A program made the position numbers and the translations under genes. The notes under the pieces are model-generated. The model made no database searches and was not told where the DNA came from. It worked only from the letters and a program-made list of their open reading frames with translations. This document shows positions 1,568 through 53,772 of a stretch of 64,000 bases of DNA, in pieces. This DNA is from an uncultured Roseburia sp. (lineage in GTDB: Bacteria; Bacillota; Clostridia; Lachnospirales; Lachnospiraceae), in the NCBI GenBank assembly GCA_946002055.1, contig CAMFYL010000001.1:62001-126000 (forward strand), in the 5' to 3' direction. Positions within the stretch are counted from its first letter, which is position 1, and every line of letters starts with the position of its first letter.

Positions 1568-2497
1568 ATGCCAATTAAGACACAAAGTGATTTGCCGGCA
1601 AAGGCAATCCTTGAACACGAAAATATATTTGTTATGGATGAGGAGAGAGCTCTTCATCAGGACATTCGACCAATTGAGATTGGAATCTTAAACCTGATGC
1701 CCTTAAAGGAGGATACGGAGCTTCAGATGCTTCGTTCCCTTTCTAACACACCATTGCAGGTAAATATTACCTTCATTGCGGTAAAGTCTCATCAGTCAAA
1801 AAACACATCCAAGAGCCACTTGAATCAATTCTATTTGTCCTTTGAGGAAGTGAAAGATAGAAACTTAGACGGTTTGGTTATCACAGGGGCACCGGTAGAG
1901 CTGATGGAATTTGAAGAGGTGGACTACTGGGATGAGCTGGTGGAGATTATGGAGTGGTCAAAGACACATGTCACATGTACCTTCCATCAGTGCTGGGGCG
2001 CTCAGGCCGGTCTCTATTATCACTACGGTATTCAGAAAGAAATATTAGACCATAAGATGTTTGGGGTTTATCAGCACAAGGTGCAGAACCGCAAGATTCC
2101 ACTGGTTCGTGGATTTGATGACTACTTTATGGCACCGCATTCCAGACATACACAGATGGATGCTAAGGCCATCAAAGACAACAAGGAGCTCATTGTGTTG
2201 GCAGAGTCAGATGAAGCCGGCATCTTCCTTGTCCTGTCCCGTGACAACAGTCAAATCTTTTGTATGGGGCATCCGGAGTATGATCGCCTCACCTTGGACA
2301 AAGAATACCGCCGTGACTTGGATAAGGGGATGGATATTCAGATGCCTAAGAACTACTATCCAAATGACGATGTCAACCAGAAGCCATTGTTGCAGTGGCG
2401 CTCTCACGCCAACTGCCTTTACACAAACTTCTTAGATTACTATGTATACCAGATGACACCATACGACCTGCACTGGTTACCTAAGGATAAAAGATAA
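1568..2497 (+). CDS. metA: Homoserine O-acyltransferase (MetA family)
   Basis: MPIKTQSDLPAKAILEHENIFVMDEERA, ITGAPVELMEFEEVDYW, CTFHQCWGAQAGLYYHYG, GHPEYD motifs. Confidence 0.96.
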   Translation: MPIKTQSDLPAKAILEHENIFVMDEERALHQDIRPIEIGILNLMPLKEDTELQMLRSLSNTPLQVNITFIAVKSHQSKNTSKSHLNQFYLSFEEVKDRNLDGLVITGAPVELMEFEEVDYWDELVEIMEWSKTHVTCTFHQCWGAQAGLYYHYGIQKEILDHKMFGVYQHKVQNRKIPLVRGFDDYFMAPHSRHTQMDAKAIKDNKELIVLAESDEAGIFLVLSRDNSQIFCMGHPEYDRLTLDKEYRRDLDKGMDIQMPKNYYPNDDVNQKPLLQWRSHANCLYTNFLDYYVYQMTPYDLHWLPKDKR

Positions 2498-2530
2498 CAC
2501 GTTTATCAGGCGTGGCTTGTAAGTGAAAGG

Positions 2531-2581
2531 CTAATACAGCATCTCTGCAAGGAGGACTTGTGAAAAAGGATGCTGTATTAG
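2531..2581. repeat. Structured repeat copy 1 (13-bp perfect stem ctaatacagcatc / gatgctgtattag)
   Basis: Direct reading of inverted repeat 2531-2543 / 2569-2581; the left half is similar to copy 2. Confidence 0.75.
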
Positions 2582-2594
2582 ATAATACTTATCA

Positions 2595-2679
2595 ACGTAA
2601 GTGCAAGGCTTTTACATTATCTCTGCAAGGACGATTCGCGAAGCGTGTCCTGCAGAGATAATGTAAAAACCTTGCACGT
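2595..2679. repeat. Structured repeat copy 2 (~85-nt, nearly perfect ~33-bp hairpin)
   Basis: acgtaagtgcaaggcttttacattatctctgcaaggac / gtcctgcagagataatgtaaaaaccttgcacgt, with a palindromic ttcgcgaa centre. Confidence 0.8.
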
Positions 2680-2698
2680 AAATAAAAAGGAGAGGGAT

Positions 2699-3469
2699 AT
2701 GCAAATAAAGTGTGAATATTGTGGGGCGTATTTTAGCGATACACAAGAGAAGTGCCCAACTTGCGGTGCACCCAATAACCAGCTGAAGAGGACAGCCAGC
2801 TCGGTGCCCACAACCATAGAAGAACTGAAGGCGTTTATTGCTGAGAAGGGGATTCCGGCAGAAAAGATTCGTTTCTTTATTGGGGTGGATTATAAGGAGC
2901 CAAAGGCCTTTGGTATTTATAAGGATGAGATGACAGGCAATTTTGTTGTCTACAAGAATAAGGCGGATGGAAGTCGTGCTGTGCGCTATGAGGGCAAGGA
3001 TGAAGCCTATGCGGTAAATGAGATTTATCAGAAACTCAGAGATGAAATTAATCGAAACAATGAGCAGCATGGGATGCCAAATGCAAATCATGGTCCGGTA
3101 AATCCTTCGCCTTATCAGCAGAGAAATACATATTCATCAAATGATAATGACCCGGAGAGAAGAAGGAATAATCAAAAGTACAAAATGCTGATGGTTGCCT
3201 TTATTATCATTGTGGCAGTGTCATTGTTTGTATGTATTTCCAATGTGGCTGTAAGGTCTTCCGGTGGACATAACGGAGGATTCTTTGTGAATGGTTCTTC
3301 CGGCTATGAATATAATGTGGATGACGATGATGATGATTCCTATAGCTGGGATAACGACGATGGCTCAAGTAGCTCCTACGATGATAGCTGGGACACGGAT
3401 TGGGATTCCGGAAGTAGCTGGGATTCTGATTGGAATAGCTTTGATTCTGACTGGGGCAGTGATTGGTAA
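2699..3469 (+). CDS. Zinc-ribbon, single-TM protein with Asp/Ser/Trp-rich C-terminal tail
   Basis: MQIKCEYCGAYFSDTQEKCPTCGAP zinc ribbon, one TM helix (MLMVAFIIIVAVSLFVCI), low-complexity tail; RBS aaaaaggagagg upstream of ATG 2699. Confidence 0.8.
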   Translation: MQIKCEYCGAYFSDTQEKCPTCGAPNNQLKRTASSVPTTIEELKAFIAEKGIPAEKIRFFIGVDYKEPKAFGIYKDEMTGNFVVYKNKADGSRAVRYEGKDEAYAVNEIYQKLRDEINRNNEQHGMPNANHGPVNPSPYQQRNTYSSNDNDPERRRNNQKYKMLMVAFIIIVAVSLFVCISNVAVRSSGGHNGGFFVNGSSGYEYNVDDDDDDSYSWDNDDGSSSSYDDSWDTDWDSGSSWDSDWNSFDSDWGSDW

Positions 3470-15642: not shown

Positions 15643-15715
15643 AGCTCCGAACGTGACTCGAACACGCGACCCCTTCATTACGAGTGAAGTGCTCTACCAA
15701 CTGAGCTATCGAAGC
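15643..15715 (-). tRNA. tRNA-Thr (CGT anticodon)
   Basis: Reverse complement GCTTCGATAGCTCAGTTGGTAGAGCACTTCACTCGTAATGAAGGGGTCGCGTGTTCGAGTCACGTTCGGAGCT folds as a cloverleaf with anticodon loop CTCGTAA; 3' CCA not encoded. Confidence 0.95.
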
Positions 15716-21935: not shown

Positions 21936-22016
21936 AAAAAAGAGCCATTGGGGACGGGTACAAATGGCACCAATTCATTGGTTGCCAGAGGTACCTGTCC
22001 CTTCAATGGCTCTTTC
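21936..22016. terminator. Long imperfect inverted repeat (REP-like), likely bidirectional terminator
   Basis: aaaaagagccattggggacgggtacaaatggcaccaatt ... attggttgccagaggtacctgtcccttcaatggctcttt between convergent genes. Confidence 0.8.
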
Positions 22017-50867: not shown

Positions 50868-51120
50868 AAATAAAAACCTGAAATGTACGATTTAACCTGT
50901 TGTTTTGAACCTACATTTACTTTAAACGGGATTCCTATATTGTCTGTTGGATGTCAAGCCTCCGTTTGCAGTGGAAGGCAGAAGCCAGATTGCGGTTACC
51001 CACCTAGCTTTGCTAGGAGTCAAAATATCAGGCCCGGCATTTTGGGGGTTACATAAGAAGAGATATGTAAGATACATAAGCTGGGAAGTTGCCTTGCGGC
51101 AACTTCCTTATTTTGTTTTT
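50868..51120 (+). ncRNA. ssrS: Candidate 6S RNA (ssrS-like) with terminator
   Basis: ~240-nt noncoding block with its own -10-like TATAAT (50856-50861), hairpins gcctcc..ggaaggc and cctagc-ttt-gctagg, and terminal hairpin ggaagttgcc-ttgc-ggcaacttcc; sequence resembles clostridial 6S RNAs from memory. Confidence 0.5.
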
Positions 51121-53536: not shown

Positions 53537-53772
53537 TGTTAAAGGCTATGAATGCGTATAGTAGCAGATTATACTATCTACAGAGAGAGACAATCGCTGG
53601 CTGTAAGTTGTCTTAGGGTTAGGTAATGTGTGAATTTCCCGCAGGAGCTGTGCGATTGAAGAAAAGTAGGTTGTACCGTTTAGTGCGCGTTAAGCATATG
53701 AGTGTCAGAGTAATCTGGAATCAGGGTGGTAACGCGGAGTAACTTCGTCCCTTTATGGGATGGAGTTTTTTT
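53537..53772 (+). promoter_or_regulatory. T-box riboswitch leader (Phe specifier UUC) with terminator
   Basis: T-box AGGGTGGTAACGCGG (53723-53737), stem I base caatcgc/gcgattg, specifier region gtgaaTTCccgcagg, terminator with T-run; upstream of pheS. Confidence 0.93.

Follow-up and report, generated by a model that had tools for sequence, protein, structure and literature searches.

What are the two hairpins that stand side by side between metA and the next gene in an uncultured Roseburia sp. (genome G000), and does the pairing of their arms belong to an RNA or to the DNA itself? The locus was analysed within a stretch of 64,000 nucleotides, referred to here as the window, which also holds a tRNA (15643-15715), a 6S RNA (50872-51052) and a T-box leader (53539-53755). 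A preliminary description had proposed two diverged copies of one hairpin, alignable without gaps over about 46 nt and with compensatory changes in their stems, and had suggested either a small non-autonomous hairpin repeat of the REP or MITE kind or a duplicated structured RNA. Covariation between paired positions is usually taken to prove functional RNA.

The features of the locus are collected in Table 1. The left halves of the two copies do align gap-free (2519-2564 against 2597-2642; 46 nt, 80% identity), and the two copies differ in their inner stem, with the right arm of each complementing its own left arm, so that the compensatory changes first described are real. Copy 2 is indeed a near-perfect hairpin (inverted repeat 2598-2627/2651-2680, 30 nt, 93% complementary; fold z-score -10.9), and copy 1, in which the 13-nt inner inverted repeat is 100% complementary, is missing a right-arm block of 10 nt when aligned with copy 2, as had been suspected; 0 of 200 shuffles folded equally well for either copy. 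The head of copy 2 reads TGCAAGGACGATTCGCGAAGCGTGTCCTGCA on the plus strand, and its minus strand includes GGACACGCTTCGCGAATCGTCC with a CGC-TTC-GCG mini-hairpin. Both copies have their conserved reading strand on the minus strand and run antisense to the genes on either side.

Table 1. Features of the metA spacer and its flanking genes (positions in the window)
Feature	Position	Strand	Basis
metA, homoserine O-succinyltransferase, upstream gene	1568..2497	+	Pfam HTS, E 8e-136
Copy 1, damaged short element	2519..2593	-	direct and inverted repeats, fold z -4.3, 10-nt gap relative to copy 2
Copy 1, outer stem GTAAGTG/TACTTAT			
Copy 1, inner 13-bp stem (inner right-arm block missing)	2531..2543/2569..2581		
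Copy 2, intact short element with arms of about 30 bp	2597..2681	-	inverted repeat, fold z, covariance model R1, long-element profile rank
Conserved head of copy 2	2624..2654	-	matches with copies 3 and 4
Downstream gene, weak zinc-ribbon match	2699..3469	+	Pfam Zn_ribbon_3, E 7e-4, under Pfam's cut-off

Such very stable hairpins adjoin Shine-Dalgarno sites, that of the downstream gene lying directly 3' of copy 2, and the host might therefore have put them to use in its transcripts, as sites for RNase III, as mRNA stabilisers or as terminators; effects of this kind on transcripts are described for Correia and ERIC elements (PMC10969869). No terminator-like site was detected at the two hairpins, however, in line with the earlier view that they are not ordinary terminators: the GC-rich stem followed by a U tract that marks a Rho-independent terminator is absent. 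A role in the transcript would also leave unexplained the conserved unpaired interior and the mixed orientation of the family described below, and we regard it as very improbable.

Two further short copies were found in G000. Copy 3 (G000:C3:23349-23428), which has an alpha-amylase-like gene on one side and a DUF5662 gene on the other, shares 28 of the 31 nt of its head (G000:C3:23373-23403) with copy 2, and its arms, almost wholly unlike those of copy 2, still pair. A covariance model built from copies 2 and 3 (R1) located copy 4 at G000:C1:41898, where G-C replaces A-U and GCAA replaces the GAA loop of the head in the same structure as copy 2; an identical copy is present in the sister genome G003. 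With four short copies in G000, the hairpin is neither a single occurrence nor without homologues, nor, as described below, without covariation. Among 397 Lachnospiraceae genomes R1 gave no match beyond G000; the matches listed did not include G003, which probably lies outside that sample. In G003 metA and the same downstream gene stand about 40 bp apart with a hairpin-free spacer, and in three other members of the genus the next gene of the row comes immediately after metA. An exact-head pattern had no match in 85,462 GTDB genomes. A looser head pattern gave 13 matches, of which only the one in L094 (Lachnospiraceae SUG1237) is a hairpin and the others look like chance; a pattern of TGCAAGGA...TCCTGCA in 200 genomes of the family gave what are apparently chance matches outside G000 (spacers judged by eye), viral matches to the first head pattern came without matching arms, and phage and plasmid records yielded for the short form only one chance-like 33-nt plasmid match. 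We note that about 3 kb around copy 4 (G000:C1:40398-43478, L085/L102) are 99.1% identical to G003:C79 (L083, L094), the two genomes being otherwise about 79-88% identical at the DNA level in the loci compared, which may reflect either a recent transfer or a mis-binned contig.

The short copies do not stand alone. A scan of 856 of the 1,935 kb of G000 for long inverted repeats (span limit 150 bp) ranked copy 4 first, copy 2 second (score 25.0) and copy 3 ninth, against a shuffled maximum of 14.7, and recovered, ranked among the short copies, six palindromes of about 145 bp with an interior common to all (GGGCACGCTTTCGCTACC...GTACCGACCGCGCC.GAAGTACCC, with arms that start GTTGT). This long element is an imperfect palindrome with a conserved terminal arm pair, GTTGTRC...GYACAAC, followed inwards by arms of 20-30 bp whose sequence varies from copy to copy and which match within any one copy; inside these lie the stem GGGCAC/GTACCC, the small hairpin CGCTTTCGC and a single bulged stem that bears conserved unpaired motifs. 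An internal pseudoknot, CGCTACC/GGTAGCG, was considered and set aside, covariation giving better backing to an extended bulged stem. The short form has the arms, a GGRC stem and the mini-hairpin; its minus strand, GC.GGRCACGCTTnCGC then GAAtCgYCC, corresponds to the long form minus the bulged inner stem. When 309 sequences, among them 305 controls (natural hairpins, 105; random palindromes, 200), were scored against the long-form profile, copy 4 came first and copy 2 second, on the minus strand; a search of the window with the long-form covariance model (R2) did not match the short copies. Judged by a short shared motif (the arm ends, GGRCACGCTTNCGC and 3' GAA..CC), the short and long forms are likely homologous, and copies 1 and 2 are probably minus-strand short forms of this family of palindromes.

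The long form is widespread within one bacterial family. R2 matched 19 times in G000, 16 times in G003 and, more weakly, 16 times in G002, with no match in G001 or G004; 130 of 397 sampled Lachnospiraceae genomes (about one third), from 117 of 334 genera, carried matches, and in a sample of the phylum only 4 of 398 genomes did so, all four Lachnospiraceae. Matches in distant genera retain CACGCTYTCGCT, TAGCGGTACATAAG and CTAAGTACC, often with the GTTGT ends, and each genome carries its own subfamily; in several genera an extra outer repeat, TTGCGAAACTC...GAGTTTCGCAA, lies about 17 nt beyond the element. No Rfam 15 family reached its gathering threshold: the long form had no match, and the short form drew matches to eukaryotic miRNA hairpins alone, which scored far below it. 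Neither open-licence papers, searched also with core oligonucleotides, nor phage and plasmid records contained a description or a homologue, respectively, of the long form; four viral-contig matches to the core pattern were rejected, two of them scoring 34 bits against R2 and lacking the outer motifs. The repeat family is thus apparently undescribed and, in these samples, specific to Lachnospiraceae.

With so many copies the nature of the pairing can be addressed. Fitting the alignment of 99 distinct sequences to the structure biases it towards covariation, yet the margin is large: 37 of 39 pairs change on both sides, double-change cells number 952 as compared to 293.5 +/- 17.7 after shuffling, and the covariation score is 0.584 as compared to 0.068-0.093 with the partners slid. 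RNA helices normally change by way of G-U intermediates. Isolated mismatches in the outer arms comprise 36 G-T and 32 A-C, and the core columns alternating between G-C and A-U hold 52 G-T and 104 A-C, of which 49 A-C stem from one column pair; leaving out this loop-mismatch pair gives 52 G-T and 55 A-C, a removal chosen after the counts were known, and retaining the column only strengthens the absence of a wobble preference. Nine tRNAs, as a control in which the finder favours G-U, gave 15 G-T and 0 A-C. Covariance models themselves favour G-U, which makes the lack of a G-U excess the more telling. As G-U is not in excess over A-C, the pairing is most likely maintained or created at the DNA level, and the element probably acts there and not as RNA. 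A multiplied structured RNA, non-coding or cis-regulatory, with its unpaired residues as active or binding site, would account for the strong covariation and the conserved unpaired motifs, and the same-direction spacers in which the elements lie are probably transcribed; such an RNA would lie on the strand carrying GGGCACGC. It is at odds with the absence anywhere of the G-U excess seen in tRNA (15:0), with copies in both orientations, with the many copies whose presence differs between species and with the lack of an Rfam match, and we consider it rather unlikely. The suggestion of a duplicated structured RNA is accordingly disfavoured, G-U not being preferred over A-C on the reading strand.

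The elements are mostly intergenic, most often between genes of the same direction, and lie antisense to genes in 27 cases and sense in 14 (all by a simple ORF call), with an antisense bias in the genus of G000. An element of G003 (L165) has an element-free counterpart site in G000 (L136), at which no clear target-site duplication is seen, the flanks diverging and differing by more than the element, and one G000 copy (L111) has decayed to a remnant. At one orthologous site the interior is alike and the arms are wholly different yet paired, with both partners changed in 16 pairs; two others carry mostly uncompensated arm changes, so that arm renewal, if it occurs, is not continuous. These four sites fit elements that are born with matched arms and decay afterwards. 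Neither a transposase nor an autonomous copy came to light, a point against the mobile reading. That the arms are copied from the target site finds no support at the one element-free site, and the arms have a consensus of their own. Alternatively, an imperfect palindrome might be inherited vertically and be kept paired solely through template switching in replication, with no mobility specific to the element. Template switching can maintain hairpins (PMC8794818), and it would suit both the double changes without wobble intermediates and the same-site copies with different paired arms. The interior and the GTTGT ends are, however, conserved across scattered sites, and subfamilies are specific to genomes, which calls for copying or ectopic conversion; the uncompensated changes in resident orthologous arms also speak against such maintenance, which we hold to be distinctly unlikely as the whole explanation.

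Since sister species differ through the gain, loss or decay of copies, since copies lie in both orientations and since a wobble preference is lacking, we read the element as a dispersed, probably mobile DNA palindrome, and we think it probable that copies 1 and 2 belong, as short members, to a dispersed, non-autonomous palindromic DNA family specific to Lachnospiraceae. Any mechanism beyond this is inference. We propose that the element would act as a cruciform or as one DNA strand in folded form, that a putative trans-acting enzyme would recognise the unpaired motifs of the folded element and mobilise it, that the element would settle in spacers between same-direction genes, and that complementarity would be renewed at the DNA level, one arm templating the other, with no selection on RNA. 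In its most specific form, a single-stranded DNA hairpin with a fixed interior that the enzyme recognises and with arms formed afresh in every mobilisation event by arm-to-arm copying, this proposal is rather unlikely; if it were true, copies would be born perfectly paired and would mimic RNA covariation by a purely DNA-based process. Large and clean covariation without wobble preference looks like a DNA-level signal. If the preferred reading of a mobile palindromic DNA family is right, the family offers a natural test case for distinguishing RNA selection from the maintenance of DNA palindromes, and a dominant gut lineage would harbour repeats that have apparently gone undescribed, along with a mobilising enzyme to be found.

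How does this family compare with known repeats? In layout it is ERIC- and MITE-like: the elements are small and lack an ORF, with terminal inverted repeats and several intergenic copies (80-145 bp; 19 long matches and 4 short), and what is unusual is that the paired arms vary whereas the unpaired interior is conserved. The scan of G000 gave no longer version of the element within its 150-bp limit, which lies below any ORF-bearing copy. ERIC is a single imperfect palindrome, intergenic, dispersed and non-coding, and to our knowledge it has no known mobilising enzyme. The ERIC/IRU elements of Enterobacteriaceae and Vibrionaceae (about 125-145 bp) share with ours all of these traits of layout, and are set apart by description: the hosts are others, as is, as far as known, the sequence, and here the arms vary between copies yet pair around a conserved unpaired interior. 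The terminal repeats of Correia elements are sequence-conserved transposase sites, whereas the arms here are the least conserved part. ERIC copy numbers are given in PMC10969869, as is the description of Correia elements (CREE/NEMIS, Neisseria), which like ours are small and intergenic with long terminal inverted repeats, and whose transcripts fold into hairpins. REP elements, of 20-40 bp (PMC3733652), resemble the family, together with their RAYT (TnpA-REP), as folded single-strand palindromes between genes, sometimes in inverted pairs. The elements here measure 80-240 bp and have a complex interior, unlike REPs. Of the preliminary assignment to a REP- or MITE-like hairpin repeat, the dispersed repeat therefore stands (4 short and about 19 long copies, both orientations, intergenic, variable between sister species), and the strict REP does not, given forms of 80-145 bp with GTTGTRC/GYACAAC ends and no GTAG/CGTC tag seen. 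Integron attC sites keep their structure as arm sequence varies, as here, and work as a folded single DNA strand; the RYYYAAC...GTTRRRY ends of attC are lacking, the ends being GTTGTRC...GYACAAC, and no cassette arrangement was seen.

Several minor observations deserve mention. In other genera (L203, L205, L172) inverted pairs of elements occur about 115-200 bp apart, in a REPIN/BIME-like manner. A separate short palindromic repeat, GGTGCCATTAGGGACTGTCCCTAATGGCACC, is present in many copies in G000 (L100, L101, L109, L110, L126, L128, L129) and looks REP/RAYT-like; the window holds at most one weak match, at position 21944. A variant at L111:19322-19457 has the usually near-invariant CGGTAC/GTACCG stem swapped for CCTCAC/GTGAGG, still paired. 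The sequences on either side of L110:8029-8153 (G000:C2:87237) read like a second element split in two, as though one copy were nested in the other, and L127:8474-8621 is a long-armed palindrome of about 148 bp with a different interior, perhaps of a sister family.
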